From Rubripirellula sp. (GTDB lineage: Bacteria > Planctomycetota > Planctomycetia > Pirellulales > Pirellulaceae): DNA of 64,000 nt. Below are positions 2,892-17,340 of the stretch, one piece after another (position 1 is the first letter of the stretch; the number at the start of each line of letters is the position of its first letter). A program made the translations under genes and the position numbers. The stretch spans positions 239,782-303,781 of the forward strand of contig JAAXJB010000003.1 in the NCBI GenBank assembly GCA_012270065.1, read 5' to 3'. The notes under the pieces were generated by a model. That model had not been told where the DNA came from, did not search any database, and was given only the letters and a program-made list of their open reading frames with translations.

Positions 2892-5597
2892 GTGACTTAC
2901 GATCCCTTCGGCGCCCGCGACCAGTTCGACACCGGAAACGGCAGCGCGACCCTTTATCGTCTCAGCAAACTGGAAGAAGCAGGCCTGGGGGAGATCAGCC
3001 GACTTCCATTCTCCATCCGCATCCTGCTTGAGGCTGTCTTACGGAATTGTGATGGTTTTCTGGTCACGGAAGAAGACGTCAGGAACCTGGCAGGCTGGAA
3101 TGCATCTGCTCCCGCAAAGCAGGAAGTTCCGTTCAAGCCGTATCGCGTTGTCCTGCAGGATTTCACAGGAGTGCCTGCAGTTGTTGATCTGGCTGCCATG
3201 CGTTCTGCCATGAAGCGGATCGGCGGGGACCCTGAAAAAATCAATCCACTCATACCTGTCGATCTCGTCGTGGATCACTCCGTCCAAGTCGATTTTTTCG
3301 GTAGCGACGGTGCTCTCCGAAAAAACGTCGATATCGAGTTTGAGCGAAACAAGGAACGATATGAATTTCTGAAGTGGGGACAGCAGGCCTTTGACAACTT
3401 CGGTGTTATTCCACCCAATGTTGGCATCGTTCATCAAGTCAACCTGGAACATCTCGCGCGTGTTGTCGCGTTGAAAGAAACCGAAGATGGTCTGGTCGCC
3501 CAACCGGATACTCTGGTTGGCACCGATAGTCATACAACCATGATCAATGGTTTGGGAGTTCTGGGTTGGGGAGTTGGCGGTATCGAAGCAGAAGCCAACA
3601 TGCTTGGCCAACCACTTTATATGTTGATGCCCGAGGTCATTGGTTTCGAACTGACCGGGACTCTTCCCGCCGGTGCAACAGCGACCGACATGGTGCTTCG
3701 TGTTGTCGAAGTTCTGCGTGCGGAGGGGGTCGTTGGAAAGTTTGTGGAGTTTTACGGAGATGGTACCAATCATATGAGCGTCGCGGATCGCGCGACAATC
3801 GCCAACATGGCCCCAGAATACGGTGCCACCATGGGTTTTTTTCCGGTTGACCAAAGGACGATCGATTATCTTCGTCAAACCGGCCGTGATTCCAAACACG
3901 TGGAACTGGTCGAACGTTACACCAAAACGCAGGGTCTATTCCGGACGCAAGACGGCCCGGATCTTGAATACACAAAGAAACTGTCCTTGGACTTGAGCAC
4001 GATTGTGCCAAGTCTGGCGGGCCCGAAACGTCCACAGGACCGGATTGCATTGAACGACATGAAACAGTCGTTTCGCAATTCCCTGACCGCTCCCATTGCA
4101 CAAAACGGATTCGGACTCGAAGCCGATGCACTTGCTCAAGAAGTCATGGTCGATGGCAATGACCACAACAGCGCAATAGCACATGGCGCAGTTGTGATAG
4201 CAGCGATCACGTCATGTACGAATACCAGTAATCCGTCGGTGATGATTGGCGCCGGGCTACTTGCCAAAAAAGCCGTTGCTCGCGGGCTGTCAGTAGCTGC
4301 TCATGTCAAAACAAGCTTGGCGCCCGGATCCCGGGTAGTCACCGACTATCTTGAGAAGGCAGATTTGATTGACCCACTGAAACAGTTGGGTTTCCACACC
4401 GTTGGCTATGGATGCACAACATGCATCGGAAACAGTGGTCCCCTGCCACCGCCAGTGGCCGATGCAATTCGCAAAGGTGATCTGGTCGCTTCTGCTGTGC
4501 TGAGCGGCAACAGGAATTTCGAGGGGCGTGTGAACCCACTTACGAAAGCCAATTATCTTGCCAGCCCCCCCTTGGTCGTCGCCTACGCAATCGCAGGCAC
4601 AACCGACATCGACCTGACTTCCGAGCCGATTGGCAGGGACAGTGATGGAAATGATGTGTATCTCACGGAACTCTGGCCAACCCCCAGTGAAATCAGCGAA
4701 ACCGTCTCTGCATCGATTGAACCCGAGATGTTCACGAGTGAGTATGAAGCCGCCGTGCGTGGTAATCAGTTGTGGAACGAAATTGATGCTGCCGGTGGAG
4801 CTCTTTACCCGTGGAACGAATCCAGTACTTACATCCAGCACCCACCATTCCTCGACTGCGTCACCGGAGATGCGTCACCAGATATCCAACCAATTCACAA
4901 GGCGCGTGTTCTTGCACTGTTGGGCGATTCGGTCACAACAGATCACATTTCACCTGCTGGCGCGATCGCATCAGATGGTCCAGCAGGCAGGTATCTCCAA
5001 GAAAATGGAGTTCAAATTAAAAACTTCAATAGCTTCGGATCTCGTCGCGGAAATGACCGTGTCATGGTGCGAGGGACGTTTGCCAACATCCGCATTCGAA
5101 ACCAGCTCGCACCAGGAACCGAGGGTGGGATCACCCGACATATGCCCGATGGCGAAATCATGAGCATTTACGATGCCTCCATGAAATATCAATCCGATGG
5201 TATCCCACTCGTCGTGCTTGCAGGCTCCGAATACGGGACCGGTAGCAGCCGTGACTGGGCAGCAAAGGGCACCATGCTGCTGGGTGTAAAAGCGGTCATC
5301 GCTGCAAGCTACGAACGGATTCATCGCAGCAATCTTGTGGGGATGGGTGTCTTACCACTCGAATTTGCAGACGCTACCAGCTGGCAGTCTCTGGGACTTA
5401 CAGGATGCGAGTCCATCGACATCCCTGAACTCTCCAACAAGCTGCAACCAAGATCAACGATCACGGTAATAGCAACTGCCGATGACGGCTCCGTCAAGAG
5501 TTTCCCATGTAACGTCCGAATCGATACACCGGTTGAGATGCAGTATTACCGAAACGGTGGTATCCTGCCGACTGTTCTGCGTAACCTGTCGGAATAG
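2892..5597 (+). CDS. acnA: Aconitate hydratase A
   Basis: This 901-residue enzyme interconverts citrate and isocitrate in the TCA cycle, in the cytoplasm. It has the length and layout of the AcnA/IRP1 type. The three cysteines that hold the [4Fe-4S] cluster are at 442 (TSCTNTSNP) and at 508 and 511 ([11 protein letters not shown]). The C-terminal swivel domain carries [16 protein letters not shown] and [14 protein letters not shown], which supply substrate-binding Ser and Arg. The start is a GTG at 2892, fitting the usual AcnA N-terminus (DPFGAR, then a stretch on folding of the first domain). It is monocistronic or joined with the small parvulin 60 bp downstream. Confidence 0.97.
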
Positions 5598-5657
5598 TCA
5601 CCACCTCGGTGATGCACCTATTGTTCAAACTCTTTCCTTTTAAACTGTGAGAAAATC

Positions 5658-5939
5658 ATGCCGAGCGCTAGTGCCCGTCACATCCTTGTCGACTCAGAAG
5701 AAAAATGCAACGAACTGAAAGCTTTGATTGCCGGAGGTGAAGACTTTGCCGCCCTTGCTGCTGAACACTCTTCCTGTCCTTCGGGCAGAAACGGCGGAGC
5801 ATTGGGGACATTTTCCCCCGGTCAAATGGTTCCTGAATTTGATCAAGCAGTTTTTGGTGGCGAAGTTGGTGTCGTACAGGGCCCCGTTAAAACCCAATTT
5901 GGATATCACCTGCTCGAAGTCACCGAGTTGAACGAATAG
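5658..5939 (+). CDS. Small parvulin-type peptidylprolyl isomerase (PpiC/Pin1 fold)
   Basis: This 93-residue protein is a single parvulin domain with no signal peptide, the same length as E. coli PpiC. Diagnostic pieces are ARHILVDSEEKC at the N-terminus, FAALAAEHSSCPSG, GGALGTFSPGQMVPEFDQAVF and the C-terminal TQFGYHLLEV. It should catalyse cis-trans isomerisation of X-Pro bonds in the cytoplasm. ATG at 5658 follows TGAGAA. It lies 60 bp after aconitase and may be cotranscribed; a hairpin terminator follows at about 6059-6084. Confidence 0.95.
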   Translation: MPSASARHILVDSEEKCNELKALIAGGEDFAALAAEHSSCPSGRNGGALGTFSPGQMVPEFDQAVFGGEVGVVQGPVKTQFGYHLLEVTELNE

Positions 5940-6058
5940 AACCACCGTTCAACATTCCACCACAGAGACACAGGCCATGGCCCCGTCGTCACACGACTCC
6001 ATCGCTGAGAAGTGTGTTACGGCGAGCCGACCAGCCTAGCGCCTCGCAATATCTGCAA

Positions 6059-6084
6059 AGGGGCAGTTTTCACTGCCCTTGTTT
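6059..6084. terminator. Intrinsic terminator between convergent genes
   Basis: GGGCAGT (6061-6067), loop TTTC, ACTGCCC (6072-6078), then TTGTTT. It follows the parvulin gene and lies just beyond the stop of the convergent isomerase gene, so it could serve both. Confidence 0.65.
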
Positions 6085-6097
6085 GGGGTGGACTTTT

Positions 6098-7057
6098 TTA
6101 AGAAAAAGCTTTGCGAAGCATCGCCAGGCTTTTTGGAATTGCGGTTTCGTGCTTTTCCTTGCCCTCAAATTCGAGGGATATATAACCCCGGTAATTTACG
6201 CCTCGCAGAATCTCTGCGACACGATCATAGTCAATGTCCAGCGTGTACCAGGTACCTCCACCAAAGTAGGTTTTTGCCTGTACGAAAACTGCCTCGGGCG
6301 CCAATTCAGCATATTGTTGATATTGATTATCGAGAAAATTACCTGTGTCGAGAGTGGCTCGCAACCAAGGCGAATTGACTGCGTTGATCACTCTCAGCAC
6401 ACCTGCTGCTGTCCGTCCCAGCCCCCAATGATTCTCGAGTCCAAGAACAACGCCACATTTTTCTGCTGCTGCAAGACACTTCTGTAAACCATCCTCGACC
6501 CATTCGAATCCCTCATCATCGGTATACCCCTCCAGTCGAGGCTCAATTCCTTTATTGGCCATCAACTCGTCAAAGTTTTTCGAAGTTCCCCACCGGCCTG
6601 TATTCACTCGAATCGTTGGTATGCCGAGGGCGTAGGCCAATTCAATGCACTTGATCGTGTGCTCAACATTCTTTTGCCTCACATCCGGGTCAGGACTGAC
6701 AAAGGACTGATGAGTTGAGAATCCACAAAGATCCAGACCGTTCCGAAATGCTCGTTGCTTGATCCGCTGCAATGCGCCGTTGGACTGATCCTGCATCTGC
6801 ACATGCAAGATTTCGACACCATCGAAGCCGGCGTCCGCAGCAAGATCAATGCACTCTTCAATCCCGAGCTTACTGTCATCGCGGTATCGCCAATACGAGT
6901 AAGTTGAGACCGCTATAAAATTCGGCCGTATTGGTGTTTCTTTGTCCCGTGCTGGTTTCGGTTCCTGCCCTGCAAGTGGGCTGGCAGAGATCGCAGCGGT
7001 CGCAGCTCCAGCCACTCCGGCGACAAAAGTACGGCGGTCAATTCCAGAAGTCATCAT
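6098..7057 (-). CDS. Tat-exported sugar phosphate isomerase/epimerase-like TIM barrel protein
   Basis: The product (319 residues from the ATG at 7057) belongs to the xylose isomerase-like/AP endonuclease 2 TIM-barrel superfamily. Evidence: FDGVEILHVQ on an early strand, LCGFSTHQSFV, RVNTGRWG, a metal-ligand-like LGLENHWGLG, LDTGNF and a final strand YISLEFEG. The N-terminus contains a twin-arginine signal (DRRTFVAG followed by an Ala-rich core), so it is exported folded, as is common for planctomycete members. I choose the ATG at 7057 because GGAG sits seven bases upstream; an in-frame start at 7087 exists but would put ten residues before the Tat motif. The substrate is unknown. Confidence 0.88.
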   Translation of the reverse strand: MMTSGIDRRTFVAGVAGAATAAISASPLAGQEPKPARDKETPIRPNFIAVSTYSYWRYRDDSKLGIEECIDLAADAGFDGVEILHVQMQDQSNGALQRIKQRAFRNGLDLCGFSTHQSFVSPDPDVRQKNVEHTIKCIELAYALGIPTIRVNTGRWGTSKNFDELMANKGIEPRLEGYTDDEGFEWVEDGLQKCLAAAEKCGVVLGLENHWGLGRTAAGVLRVINAVNSPWLRATLDTGNFLDNQYQQYAELAPEAVFVQAKTYFGGGTWYTLDIDYDRVAEILRGVNYRGYISLEFEGKEKHETAIPKSLAMLRKAFS

Positions 7058-7443
7058 AAAAACTCCAAAGGCTTGCGGAGCTGACAATATAACGATCTGA
7101 AAATCCCCTGCACAAGCTCATGCCGGATGGGCCATGGGCTGAATCACACTTCGCTCAATTCCCATGAGCGACTGATGGAAAGCCGCCGTACTTCAAACTC
7201 GCAGAGTGGCATGGGGGGGGTGCGGCAGATCGATCACGGTTCATGAAACAGGACAGCTGGAAGAACGGCATACTCGAACCACCCGCCATGCCCAACCGAG
7301 TCCAGTTATCAATTCCTGCAAGTCAATTCCCGCCGACCCGAGAATCACTGCCATCTTCCATGAAATTCAGCAACGCTTTTCATCATCAGACAAGCAAATG
7401 CCCATCCGGATAACGATGGACAGGCAAATACTCTTCTATGACT
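7058..7443. other. Intergenic region without a recognised gene
   Basis: About 386 bp upstream of the isomerase and downstream of cysI, both on the minus strand. I see a run of eight G at 7213-7220 and a weak hairpin CCATC/GATGG (7402-7406/7415-7419) some 25 bp beyond the cysI stop that might help end its transcript. No coding signal persuades me. Confidence 0.5.
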
Positions 7444-9153
7444 TCAAACTTTCGGAGCATTTGCGGCGAGTACAGCAAGGTCGTCTTTGCCGACCCTTGT
7501 ACAAAACGTGCCCAACGACTCACCCTCTTCACGATTGGCTTTGAACGCAGCAAAGATGGCAATCAATTCGTCCACAACCACATCATCCGGAACCAGATCC
7601 TTGTAAATGTAGGCAAGCCGATTCCCCAGCCATCCACCGCCAGCATACAACGTGTACTTGTCCTTGGCTTTCCCAACCAGAGCGAGGTCGGCGTTGTAGG
7701 GTCGCGCACAGCCGTTAGGGCACCCAGTCATTCGGATCGTGAACCGTTCTTTATCCAAGCCCAACTTGGCAAGAGGTGCCTCCAATCCGTCAATGATGCT
7801 TGGAAGCCGTCGTTCACTTTCCGTGATGGCAAGCCCGCACGTCGGCAAGGCAACACATGACATCGACCATCGGCGCACCGTGCTGGTTTCCTCGGTAGTC
7901 GGCACGTGATGCTGCTTGACCAGATCAATCAGTTTTTCCCGGTCCCCCTCATCGATATCAGTGAAGATCACACTTTGATGTCCGGTCATCCGCAGTTCGG
8001 TCTTGAACTCCCGGCAGATTGCCCGAAGGGTTGCCTTCAGTTGCCGCTCATCGTTGTCATAAAGCCGACCATTTTCAATATTCAGACCATAAGACCATTT
8101 GCCGTCGCCCTGTTCCTGCCAGCCCATGTGATCATCGAATCCATGAACATCATCTTCAGTACAGTCAGCTAGTGACTGACCATAGTACTTCTCAACCTCT
8201 GCTCGGAACTTTTCGATTCCCCAATCATTGATCAAATACTTCATGCGAGCTGTTTTGCGATCCTGGCGGTTCCCATGATCGCGTTGGACTTTGAGAATCG
8301 CCTGCGAAACGCCCACTGCCTGGTCAGGTGTGATGAACGCCAGACGCTTCGCGAGCGCGGGAAACGTCTTCTTTGCCGAAGGGGTTGTTCCCATACCTCC
8401 GCCGACCAGCACGTTGTAACCGATGATGGCACCATCCCGGACAACCGCCAGAAAACCAAGATCCTGTGTGTAAATATCGATACAGTTGTCTTCGGGTAAC
8501 GCGATGCCCATTTTGAATTTTCGGGGCAAATAGGTCGGCCCATACAAAGGTTCAACAACGCCACCACCTTCCAGGGTCTTCTCACCGGAATCAGGATCCG
8601 TCAGCCACAATTCATGGTAGGCAGGTGTCTGTGGTGCCAGAGCATCTGTCAATACATCGGTCAGCTTTTCCATGTCCTCATGAATGCTACCTGCTCGCTT
8701 GGCCGGACAGCACATGATGTTGCGATTGACATCTCCGCATGCAGCCAAGGTGGACAATGCGATTTCGTTGATGTAGGCAATCGTTTCCCGGAGGTCATCT
8801 TTGAGAATGCCGTGCAACTGGAGCGTTTGACGTGTGGTGATTTTGATGGTGGAGTTTCCAAGCCGCTCACAAAGATCAAGCATGGACAACATCTGGTCTG
8901 ACTGGATTCGTCCCCCAGGGATCCTCAGCCGTACCATCATTGAATAGGCTTTTCCCGCCCCTGTCTTTCTGGCCGTCAAGCGTGCATCACGGTCATCTTG
9001 CTGGTAGGTCCCATGGAACTTCAGAAGCTGTATATTGCTCTTGTCGAAGTGGTCGATTGAATCGGCGATCTCCTGGCCGATCGTTCCTTTCAAATAATCA
9101 CTGCCCTCTTTGATGGTTTCAACTGGACTCAATTTTGGCGCGTCGGTAGACAT
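7444..9153 (-). CDS. cysI: Assimilatory sulfite reductase hemoprotein (siroheme/4Fe-4S)
   Basis: This 569-residue protein matches the CysI hemoprotein in length and order of motifs. It reduces sulfite to sulfide by six electrons in sulfur assimilation. Near the N-terminus FHGTYQQDDRDARL and QTLQLHGILK are characteristic of CysI, with siroheme- and sulfite-binding Arg/Lys residues. The cluster/siroheme cysteines are near 432 and 438 (CVALPTC) and 477 and 481 (CPNGC). Nitrite reductases of the same superfamily are the main alternative, but the N-terminal motifs favour sulfite reductase. No flavoprotein partner (cysJ) is beside it, so its electron donor, NADPH-flavoprotein or ferredoxin, cannot be told. 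Confidence 0.92.
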   Translation of the reverse strand: MSTDAPKLSPVETIKEGSDYLKGTIGQEIADSIDHFDKSNIQLLKFHGTYQQDDRDARLTARKTGAGKAYSMMVRLRIPGGRIQSDQMLSMLDLCERLGNSTIKITTRQTLQLHGILKDDLRETIAYINEIALSTLAACGDVNRNIMCCPAKRAGSIHEDMEKLTDVLTDALAPQTPAYHELWLTDPDSGEKTLEGGGVVEPLYGPTYLPRKFKMGIALPEDNCIDIYTQDLGFLAVVRDGAIIGYNVLVGGGMGTTPSAKKTFPALAKRLAFITPDQAVGVSQAILKVQRDHGNRQDRKTARMKYLINDWGIEKFRAEVEKYYGQSLADCTEDDVHGFDDHMGWQEQGDGKWSYGLNIENGRLYDNDERQLKATLRAICREFKTELRMTGHQSVIFTDIDEGDREKLIDLVKQHHVPTTEETSTVRRWSMSCVALPTCGLAITESERRLPSIIDGLEAPLAKLGLDKERFTIRMTGCPNGCARPYNADLALVGKAKDKYTLYAGGGWLGNRLAYIYKDLVPDDVVVDELIAIFAAFKANREEGESLGTFCTRVGKDDLAVLAANAPKV

Positions 9154-14737: not shown

Positions 14738-16291
14738 TCATCTGGACAATTCGGACAATACTGCATCGAGACGATCGTCAATCGCCTCGTAGTCTGTCAT
14801 GCGTTCAGCAGGGTCCGCATGCATCATGCTGGTGATCAACTTTCGAAGCGAATCAGGTGTATCCCGCCAATCCGACTCTTTGGGTTCAAAACGCTGCATT
14901 GAGCTGATGATGGTCTTGGTACTATCGCTGTCGAAAGCTCTTCTACCGCTGAATATTTCGTAGGCCACACATCCGAGGCTGAAGAAATCACTTCTATAAT
15001 CAGCGGGGTATCCCCGCAGCCGTTCTGGTGCAATGAATCCCGGTGTTCCGCTCAAACGTTCCTTCAAGTCACGTTTTTGGCACAACTCGTCAGCCAGACC
15101 GAAATCAAGAAGGTGGCATTTTCTCGAATCAAGACTCAACATGATATTGTCCGGCTTGATATCTCTGTGCACGAGGCCAATCTTATGAACCGCCTGCACA
15201 CCATTCAAAATCTTTTTGAATAGTTCCGTCCCCAGTTGCAGCGAGACCTTACCCTGTCGAATACGCTTTGAAAGAGATTGACCGGCCAAGTGTTCCATGA
15301 CGAAATAGGGGCGATCGCTAATCTTTCCCACATCATAAACACGCACGACATTTTCGTGTGATAAACGAGCCATCGCGCGGGCTTCTTCGATGAAAGCATC
15401 CGATACATCTTTTCCAACGTTGACCGACTTGAGGGTTTTAATTGCAACCACCCGATTCAGAATGTCATCTGTGCCGCGATAGACCACCCCCATGCCACCA
15501 ACGCCGATTATCTCGTTGACCTCATATCTGCCCAGCCGTTTCGGAAACGGAATCAGATTCTGCTTAGAATCACGTGTGCCCGAACCAGGTCGACTACCCG
15601 AGGCGGATGGAAACCAATCAAAGCTGCCTGAGCCTGACGAGACTTGCGAACCGGCGGAGTCGTCCGAAGCAACAAACGTTTCGTCACAATCATCAGCTGT
15701 TGCCGTCGCTCCAAAATTGACAACGTCAACCTCCTCATTCTCACTCTGCTCCAACTCGCGTTTCGCTTCGAAAGTACAGAAAGGATGTCCCTGTTTGGCA
15801 CAGGTGACCTCGCGAATATTGATTTTTTCCCCGTAGAAGTCCGCGATTCCCTCGATGATTCCGTGAGCGAGAGTACACAGACCACGGCGAGACGAATAGA
15901 TGACCTGAGCTTCATCTTCAGTCAAACGAAACGCTTGTATATTGGCTGGCTGCGCCGTGGGGTTCTGGATCCGAATGGTGCGATGAATCAAGGATTCAAC
16001 GTTTGAGAGCAACTCGAACGTCTTCCAATCAGGGTGCAACATGTTACTCGCGAACCCAATCAACTCCGGCCCGGCGAAACGTCCGAGAATTCGCAGCAAA
16101 TCGTCCAGCTCAACCTGCAACAACTCGCAAGCTGCTCCCAGAAGAGCGAATACGGCCTCATCGGGATATGTCTGGATGGGAGACAGTACCAAGCCCTCGT
16201 GCCCTGCATGCTGCAAGATCGAATCCCACGTTTCCGAACCGTAATTCGTGTCCACAAACTTCTTGACGATACAGCAAATGGATCCGTGCAT
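14738..16291 (-). CDS. H-NOX (heme NO-binding) domain fused to a Ser/Thr protein kinase
   Basis: Residues 1 to about 180 look like an H-NOX domain: an MHGSICCIVKKFV start, YGSETWDSIL (17-26), a candidate proximal heme ligand H103 in NVESLIHRTI, P115, and the porphyrin-binding YxSxR motif at 132-136 (YSSRR). A Ser/Asp-rich linker (about 181-250) leads to a Hanks-type kinase with every key motif: GVGGMG (263-268), AIK with K285, HRD (375-377), DN (381-382), DFG (396-398), and an APE segment. There is no membrane segment, so it is cytoplasmic. Inference: binding of NO, CO or O2 to heme modulates Ser/Thr phosphorylation. An FHA protein lies upstream on the same strand. H-NOX usually pairs with histidine kinases or cyclases. 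Confidence 0.82.
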   Translation of the reverse strand: MHGSICCIVKKFVDTNYGSETWDSILQHAGHEGLVLSPIQTYPDEAVFALLGAACELLQVELDDLLRILGRFAGPELIGFASNMLHPDWKTFELLSNVESLIHRTIRIQNPTAQPANIQAFRLTEDEAQVIYSSRRGLCTLAHGIIEGIADFYGEKINIREVTCAKQGHPFCTFEAKRELEQSENEEVDVVNFGATATADDCDETFVASDDSAGSQVSSGSGSFDWFPSASGSRPGSGTRDSKQNLIPFPKRLGRYEVNEIIGVGGMGVVYRGTDDILNRVVAIKTLKSVNVGKDVSDAFIEEARAMARLSHENVVRVYDVGKISDRPYFVMEHLAGQSLSKRIRQGKVSLQLGTELFKKILNGVQAVHKIGLVHRDIKPDNIMLSLDSRKCHLLDFGLADELCQKRDLKERLSGTPGFIAPERLRGYPADYRSDFFSLGCVAYEIFSGRRAFDSDSTKTIISSMQRFEPKESDWRDTPDSLRKLITSMMHADPAERMTDYEAIDDRLDAVLSELSR

Positions 16292-16641: not shown

Positions 16642-17340
16642 TCAGGCATCCGGCCAATCAGGGTCTGCTATCTGACGCGCCATACTGGCAAGCTTAGCTT
16701 GGGTATCCAACATTCGCTGCCATGATGCAATTTTCAGAATCACTTCCTGACTATTTTCATCTGTTCGTGCGGCTTCAATCAATCGTTTGAGTCGCGACTG
16801 CAAGTAATCGAGGATCTCGCATATCTGCGCCTTTTGCCCGGGTGACAAATCATCTGGGATGTCCGGCACCTCCTGAACCTGAATGATCTCTGCGGGTTGC
16901 GGTGACTTGGGTTCCGCACCCAAATTCAGTGCAATTGAGCCATCGCTTTGATGTTCTTCACGGCTCACCGTGGGATTCTCATTTCCCATGGCCGCCAAAC
17001 GGGCAGCAATCTGACTTTCCGAACCAACTAGCATCAAACTTCGACCAACGGAGATAAGATCTCCGTGCCGCAAGATTTTAAGTTGGCACTCAACTCCGTT
17101 CACCTTCGTGCCATTGGTGCTATCGAGATCCGTCAAAACGAGGCGGTCATTGTCTCGTTGCACTTTGAAGTGACAGCGGCTCACCCGTTCGTCGTTGAGT
17201 TGGATTTCATTCCCTTCCTCTCTACCAATCGTCAGAGGGGGAGCAAGATCTTCATAGATCTTGCCACGGTCGGCTCCATGCAGAATTTTGAGCGTTACGC
17301 CCGACATAGGGCTCTCCACTGGTGGGGAATTCTTAGACAA
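16642..17340 (-). CDS. FHA domain protein
   Basis: The 232-residue protein begins with a forkhead-associated domain (about residues 15-105), a phosphothreonine reader. Key residues are present: GR (39-40), SRCHF (54-58) and STNGTKVNG (about 74-82). The remainder is a Ser/Pro-rich linker and a helical C-terminal segment (about 170-225) that may form a coiled coil. No enzyme domain or membrane anchor is seen. The next gene on the same strand encodes a Ser/Thr kinase, so this protein may bind its phosphorylated products. The ATG at 17340 or the second one at about 17307 (MSGVTLKIL) could be the start. Confidence 0.88.
   Translation of the reverse strand: MSKNSPPVESPMSGVTLKILHGADRGKIYEDLAPPLTIGREEGNEIQLNDERVSRCHFKVQRDNDRLVLTDLDSTNGTKVNGVECQLKILRHGDLISVGRSLMLVGSESQIAARLAAMGNENPTVSREEHQSDGSIALNLGAEPKSPQPAEIIQVQEVPDIPDDLSPGQKAQICEILDYLQSRLKRLIEAARTDENSQEVILKIASWQRMLDTQAKLASMARQIADPDWPDA

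Follow-up and report, generated by a model that had tools for sequence, protein, structure and literature searches.

The window (the whole stretch of 64,000 nucleotides of Rubripirellula sp. DNA that was analysed) carries on its reverse strand a gene whose product joins an H-NOX domain to a complete Hanks Ser/Thr kinase in one chain of 517 residues, with a gene for an FHA protein upstream (Table 1). This fusion had already been proposed in the initial annotation, and Pfam bears it out: residues 3-160 match HNOB with 104.4 bits (cut-off 25.5) and residues 256-504 match Pkinase with 185.6 bits. The residues singled out at that time are all found where they had been placed, i.e. H103, P115, Y132/S134/R136, K285, the HRD at 375-377 and the DFG at 396-398. 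The ATG start is supported, since the His and the Gly that follow the start residue are conserved family-wide (in 64/66 and 66/66 fusions, respectively). The protein looks soluble, as none of its 19-residue stretches reaches a mean Kyte-Doolittle value above 1.26, so that a strongly hydrophobic stretch is lacking.

Table 1. Positions in the window of the fusion gene, of its parts and of the upstream FHA gene
Feature	Positions	Strand	Basis
H-NOX / Ser-Thr kinase fusion gene, 517 aa from ATG	14738..16291	-	ORF list and Pfam
H-NOX (HNOB) domain, residues 1-180	15752..16291	-	HNOB 104.4 bits; AF2 pLDDT 93.4; Z 24.4 to S. oneidensis H-NOX
H103, predicted proximal heme ligand	15983..15985	-	66/66 fusions; S. 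oneidensis His103 (PMC7108781)
YxSxR heme motif, residues 132-136	15884..15898	-	66/66 fusions
V4R-like C-terminal part of the H-NOX domain, residues 132-177	15761..15898	-	V4R 35.3 bits
C139, first Cys of the three-Cys site	15875..15877	-	66/66; S. oneidensis zinc ligand Cys139 (PMC7108781)
C164, second Cys of the three-Cys site	15800..15802	-	66/66; S. oneidensis Cys164 (PMC7108781)
C172, third Cys of the three-Cys site	15776..15778	-	66/66; S. oneidensis Cys172 (PMC7108781)
Linker, residues 181-250, mostly predicted disordered	15542..15751	-	pLDDT <50 at 182-202 and 206-244
T205 of the linker motif [DE]-T-hydrophobic, candidate phosphosite	15677..15679	-	motif in 54/66 linkers
Hanks Ser/Thr kinase domain, residues 256-504 (K285, E303, HRD 375, DFG 396)	14780..15526	-	Pkinase 185.6 bits; catalytic residues; Foldseek
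Upstream FHA protein, gap 351 bp, possible genus-specific partner	16642..17340	-	FHA 65.8 bits

We think that the N-terminal domain is an H-NOX domain rather than one of the V4R type, a reading that is supported by the profiles and by the predicted structure. Both comparisons had been suggested at the outset as a way to challenge the H-NOX assignment, and neither refuted it. The AlphaFold2 model of the domain (pLDDT 93.4, from an input alignment of 40 domains, and lacking heme) superposes with its residues 1..180 on residues 1..180 of the heme-bound S. oneidensis H-NOX 4u9b (Z 24.1, rmsd 1.9), and the alignment puts H103 at the proximal position. The top PDB match is another S. oneidensis entry, 4u99 (Z 24.4, 183 residues aligned); altogether, the H-NOX proteins of S. 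oneidensis and Nostoc match best (178-183 residues aligned at Z 23-24), among the lower entries are human guanylate cyclase beta and T. tengcongensis H-NOX, and a profile search of PDB sequences returned 29 distinct sequences of the same kinds of chain.

Could the protein nevertheless be a small-molecule sensor of the V4R type, comparable to the phenol sensors MopR and PoxR, which has kept the H-NOX shell and holds an organic ligand instead of heme? Residues 132-177 do match V4R (35.3 bits, cut-off 31). All 38 fused proteins of one alignment (A1) match both HNOB (E 0.001 or better) and V4R; in a second one (A2) V4R matches 32 of the 40 rows, which is the number of fused rows, in an output that leaves the matching rows unnamed. 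A fold akin to TRAPP/Bet3 also appears among the structural matches, at Z 9.6. Moreover, a three-Cys cluster, present in 66/66 fusions, is described in V4R domains (relevant passages of PMC5847659), and this explains why the V4R profile also recognises the fused H-NOX domains. Both marks of the MopR/PoxR type, the profile match and the cluster, are thus present, but HNOB is the better match, with about three times as many bits; TRAPP/Bet3 chains come after 42 structural matches that are all H-NOX or guanylate cyclase chains, and the heme residues do not vary across the fusions. We therefore regard such a V4R-type sensor as quite improbable and treat the domain as H-NOX.

The C-terminal part belongs to the Hanks Ser/Thr kinases by its profile score and by its catalytic Lys, Glu, HRD and DFG. 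K285 and E303 are kept in 66/66 fusions, and the HRD and DFG aspartates in all rows that have a letter at the position (62/62 and 60/60, respectively). In a Foldseek search of the PDB, the first match for the kinase was 6b2q (an M. tuberculosis PknA/PknB entry), followed by DAPK1 and CaMKII; the profile NF033483 gave 220.4 bits, a value that lies below its full-length cut-off of 450. The full-length model has a pTM of 0.56 and so provides no confident interface between H-NOX and kinase. The linker between them is mostly disordered by prediction and varies from 34 to 284 residues across the fusions (as delimited by the alignment columns that we chose), which makes a rigid lever from the H-NOX domain to the kinase unlikely.

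Most linkers share a short pattern, [DE]T[VIFLMT], which occurs in 54/66 of them as compared with a mean of 13.1 and a maximum of 22 in shuffled linkers, and, after thinning, in 41/51 as compared with a mean of 9.4 and a maximum of 19. The pattern was picked after viewing the sequences, and the shuffles preserve composition, not relatedness; since the choice was post hoc and the sequences are related, we take the motif as a lead. Acidic-Thr phosphosites are bound by FHA domains, and the linker motif resembles these. As a possible FHA-readable phosphosite it would fit a kinase encoded beside an FHA gene.

How widespread is the fusion? A first scan, limited to the best 80 of 572 relatives, was no census. 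One listed match, which starts at residue 133 (L024), was discarded as an H-NOX protein: it does not match the H-NOX profile, and its genome (G784) contains no HNOB match. For the census itself, genomes were sampled from the order and from the phylum of the window; HNOB matches are present in 92/396 and 42/392 of these, respectively. Every frame above 300 aa was taken from both samples with the exception of one below the cut-off (in G391), while frames cut by contig ends (e.g. in G061 and G281) are classifiable neither as fused nor as unfused. Removal of identical proteins left 68 fusions and 45 H-NOX frames without kinase. Two fusions with a degenerate H-NOX domain (L181 and L187) were set aside, which gives 66; three unfused frames were dropped, one at a contig end (L139), one that has no kinase in frame and yet falls inside the fused clade (L179) and one with an in-frame TGA (L148). 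The remaining 42 are a subset taken for comparison out of the unfused H-NOX proteins of the two samples.

The 66 non-degenerate fusions comprise 62 loci in 61/396 genomes of the order, one in a further metagenome-assembled genome (L005) and three in a single genome of another class (L183-L185). Of these fusions, 61/66 have an almost complete kinase domain and five a partial one; three of the five run into a contig end (L133, L144, L157), whereas the frames of the two others (L156, L165) stop early. Full-length identity to the window protein ranges from 28 to 82% among the 37 fusions compared. No fusion was found in 194, 188, 199 and 194 sampled genomes of four other phyla; these samples were centred on genomes whose loci bear the titles Verrucomicrobiales, Nannocystis, Acidobacteria and Obscuribacterales, and every row with an open frame above 300 aa was taken, except one below the cut-off in G1436.

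In the alignment of the 66 fusions, H103, P115, Y132, S134 and R136 are kept without exception; counting the two degenerate proteins, the proximal His and the YxSxR motif are found in 66/68. These two have lost both and still match the kinase profile, so that heme is not needed in every fusion. One of them (L181:1577-3268) is the second fusion of a single-contig genome of the family of the window (G117), whose other fusion (L148:2549-3637) is broken by an in-frame stop; the other degenerate protein (L187:1493-3478) comes from a genome of another class (G502), and the stretch after its kinase resembles TPR repeats by eye.

Within the genus, the two domains and the linker evolve differently. Between the window protein and its full-length orthologue L003 (82% identical), the proportion of nonsynonymous sites that differ is 0.068 for the H-NOX part, 0.088 for the kinase part and 0.286 for the linker; the corresponding values for synonymous sites are 0.765, 0.705 and 0.66. 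In two within-genus pairs, each domain has a nonsynonymous proportion of a tenth to a fifth of the synonymous one, as against about two fifths to three fifths for the linker. Synonymous sites are near saturation, and we therefore use only the contrast between the parts. As nonsynonymous change is far below synonymous change, both the H-NOX and the kinase domain are under purifying selection. This has to be weighed against the idea that the kinase is constitutive and the H-NOX domain a vestige that merely serves as scaffold or dimeriser. The two proteins without heme residues would suit such an idea, as would the variable linker, but the other 66 of 66 fusions keep every heme residue, and within the genus the constraint on the H-NOX part is no weaker than that on the kinase; we find a vestigial domain highly improbable, and prefer a working sensor.

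As to the ligand of this sensor, O2 had been proposed at first alongside NO and CO. Position 141 of the fusions corresponds to the distal Tyr140 of T. tengcongensis / C. subterraneus numbering by an offset of +1 from the YxSxR motif, an offset based on what we take to be the T. tengcongensis numbers of that motif. This position is Leu in 63/66 fusions and Tyr in none (0/66). O2-binding H-NOX proteins have Tyr140, and O2 binding is tied to that residue (in the passages concerned of PMC7356049 and PMC8738867). Since O2 binding depends on a distal Tyr that is absent from the fusions, NO is the more likely ligand, and the substitution suggests that O2 sensing by the fused H-NOX is unlikely; on this point the original proposal is disfavoured.

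Where would NO come from? Copper nitrite reductase, considered as an endogenous source, was discarded: it does not exceed the cut-off in any of 66 genomes of the order, 33 of them with the fusion, and weaker matches occur in 14/66. In this search the control exceeded the cut-off in 1/14, and the copper family alone was covered, as distinct from cd1 nitrite reductase and NO reductase. With no copper nitrite reductase above the cut-off, an internal source of NO finds no support.

The fusions have a second conserved feature, absent from the initial annotation, as was their spread over the order. Cys139, Cys164 and Cys172 are all kept in 66/66 fusions as compared with 4/42 of the unfused H-NOX proteins. 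In S. oneidensis H-NOX the zinc ligands are Cys139, Cys164 and Cys172 together with His161 (part of PMC7108781). By analogy the three Cys probably hold zinc in the fusions. At position 161 the window protein has Glu in place of the His or Gln of an S. oneidensis-type site, and so does most of the family (Glu 53, Gln 8, Lys 4, His 1), which indicates that the fourth ligand differs or is absent.

This site raises the question whether the protein is primarily a redox or zinc sensor kinase, in which the three Cys rather than the heme are the working input and a disulfide switches the kinase. In V. cholerae, oxidation of the zinc-site Cys of H-NOX to disulfides makes H-NOX inhibit the histidine kinase HnoK (as reported in part of PMC7108781), and the heme-free V. 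cholerae H-NOX would be the model for such a sensor. The invariance of the three Cys, so rare among the unfused proteins compared, speaks in its favour, and so does the failure of copper nitrite reductase to exceed the cut-off in the 66 genomes; but the residues that serve heme, H103, P115 and YxSxR, show the same invariance, the Cys may be merely structural, and the position of the fourth ligand is mostly Glu. A redox sensor first and foremost is in our opinion unlikely, if worth keeping in mind, and heme is retained below as the main input.

When 93 H-NOX domains, thinned at 90% identity, are placed in a tree (bootstrap not settled, at 0.987; long branches flagged), 53 rows fall together on the same side of a branch supported at 100/98; these are 51 fusions and the truncated frames L139 and L179. 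As the fused H-NOX domains form one clade, the fusion looks to have arisen once and then to have been retained. The nearest outsider in a quick tree is an unfused acidobacterial H-NOX protein that has the three-Cys site (L206); with it added, the support of the fused clade is 68, and the clade still occupies one side of a branch. This protein points to the type of unfused ancestor that may have given rise to the fusion. Beside its gene (L206:1528-2541, in G1178) there are many near-identical short repeats in frames that look by eye like a CRISPR array.

The FHA protein encoded upstream had been put forward as a possible read-out. Its orthologue is the upstream neighbour in 3/66 fusion loci, all of the genus of the window, and a profile search of the ORFs of the loci found a single further FHA-like frame upstream of a fusion (710 aa, L185); the upstream flank is shorter than 1.7 kb in 6/66 loci, including the retrieved locus of the window gene itself. 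As the adjacent orthologue is confined to one genus, there is little to support an FHA read-out across the fusions at large, and we reject it in that role. Other lineages have different neighbours beside the fusion. In another family (f8, L135-L178), hisS lies convergent and downstream of the fusion (a cluster in 26 loci, with one representative checked by Pfam), a conserved upstream gene is found in 27 loci (the one representative tested has no Pfam match), and a DUF4159 protein is encoded nearby in 30 loci (one representative tested). The initial annotation thus holds for H-NOX rather than V4R, for the place of H103 and for the kinase fusion, and needs correction for O2, which is unlikely, and for FHA if this is taken as a general read-out.

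The genome of the window also encodes the usual H-NOX arrangement: on contig C79, a stand-alone H-NOX (L195:4934-5512) is directly followed by a hybrid histidine kinase (5513-7831) with GAF, HisKA, HATPase and receiver domains. The fused protein is consequently additional to the usual pathway.

Taking together residues, domains and predicted fold, we think it reasonably likely that the fusion is a cytosolic NO-sensing Ser/Thr kinase, a soluble one-protein enzyme that possibly senses redox state as well. For the heme, its ligand, the zinc, the direction of regulation and the targets, we infer the following. The N-terminal H-NOX domain would hold ferrous heme on His103, and this heme would take up NO, and in vitro also CO, but not O2. 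Once NO is bound, the Fe-His103 bond would become weaker or be lost, upon which the two halves of the H-NOX domain would shift; this shift would alter a contact with, or a restraint on, the C-terminal kinase across the flexible linker of about 70 residues, and phosphorylation would be switched. Zinc at Cys139/Cys164/Cys172 may make the same switch sensitive to oxidants, and the conserved linker Thr is a candidate autophosphorylation site at which FHA proteins could read the state of the enzyme. Whether NO turns the kinase up or down is not readable from the sequence; where H-NOX works with HnoK, it inhibits the kinase in its NO-bound form (parts of PMC8846402 and PMC8738867). A more ambitious version, in which one H-NOX domain throughout the order integrates NO through heme and oxidants through the three-Cys zinc site, and sets a fused kinase that marks its own linker Thr for an FHA protein to read, with no need of a histidine kinase or a cyclic nucleotide, is to us an attractive but doubtful extension.

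The signal of bacterial Hanks kinases is seldom known. A kinase with its own heme sensor names its likely signal, and it can be tested in one tube. If our reading is true, gas and redox sensing would be tied directly to bacterial Ser/Thr phosphorylation, a route that goes unmentioned in the relevant passages of the H-NOX literature. Fusions of H-NOX to other outputs are known, as are H-NOX proteins that act on separate kinases; for a fusion to a Ser/Thr kinase we found no paper among those seen in the open literature, as distinct from subscription papers, supplements and domain databases. In the passages concerned of PMC12670364, PMC10611200 and PMC2754085, H-NOX and kinase terms occur apart; HNOBA, a different domain, was not seen joined to kinases in a eukaryotic set (same part of PMC2754085), and Acanthamoeba has H-NOX proteins without cyclase (part of PMC4053784). 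The main texts of a study of planctomycete kinases (PMC11032199) and of one on prokaryotic kinase architectures (PMC1262709) do not mention HNOB, and their supplements, or domain databases, could list the fusion. The fusion was possibly overlooked because copies such as L003-L005 come from metagenome-assembled genomes.

The closest known systems are the H-NOX-HnoK pairs of S. oneidensis and V. cholerae, with which the fusion shares the H-NOX fold, the proximal His103, YxSxR and a kinase output. The likeness to S. oneidensis H-NOX, the best structural match, extends to Cys139/164/172 at the same numbers; by contrast, the His161 or Gln zinc ligand of these systems is mostly replaced by Glu, and their separate histidine kinase by a Ser/Thr kinase in the same chain. 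An N-terminal H-NOX domain in a multidomain enzyme is also found in animal soluble guanylate cyclase beta (Z 21.5 to 8hbe), but there the output is a cyclase, and in the fusion no further Pfam domain lies between H-NOX and kinase. The H-NOX-chemotaxis receptors of anaerobes (Tt/Cs H-NOX) also unite H-NOX and output in one chain; unlike the fusion, with its Leu and no strongly hydrophobic stretch, they are membrane proteins that carry the distal Tyr and bind O2 (part of PMC8738867). Finally, the kinase domain with its motifs, the NF033483 match and the fold match to 6b2q relate the fusion to PknB-type Hanks kinases, from which it differs in that no PASTA or transmembrane part was found in it and that its sensor is an N-terminal H-NOX domain.
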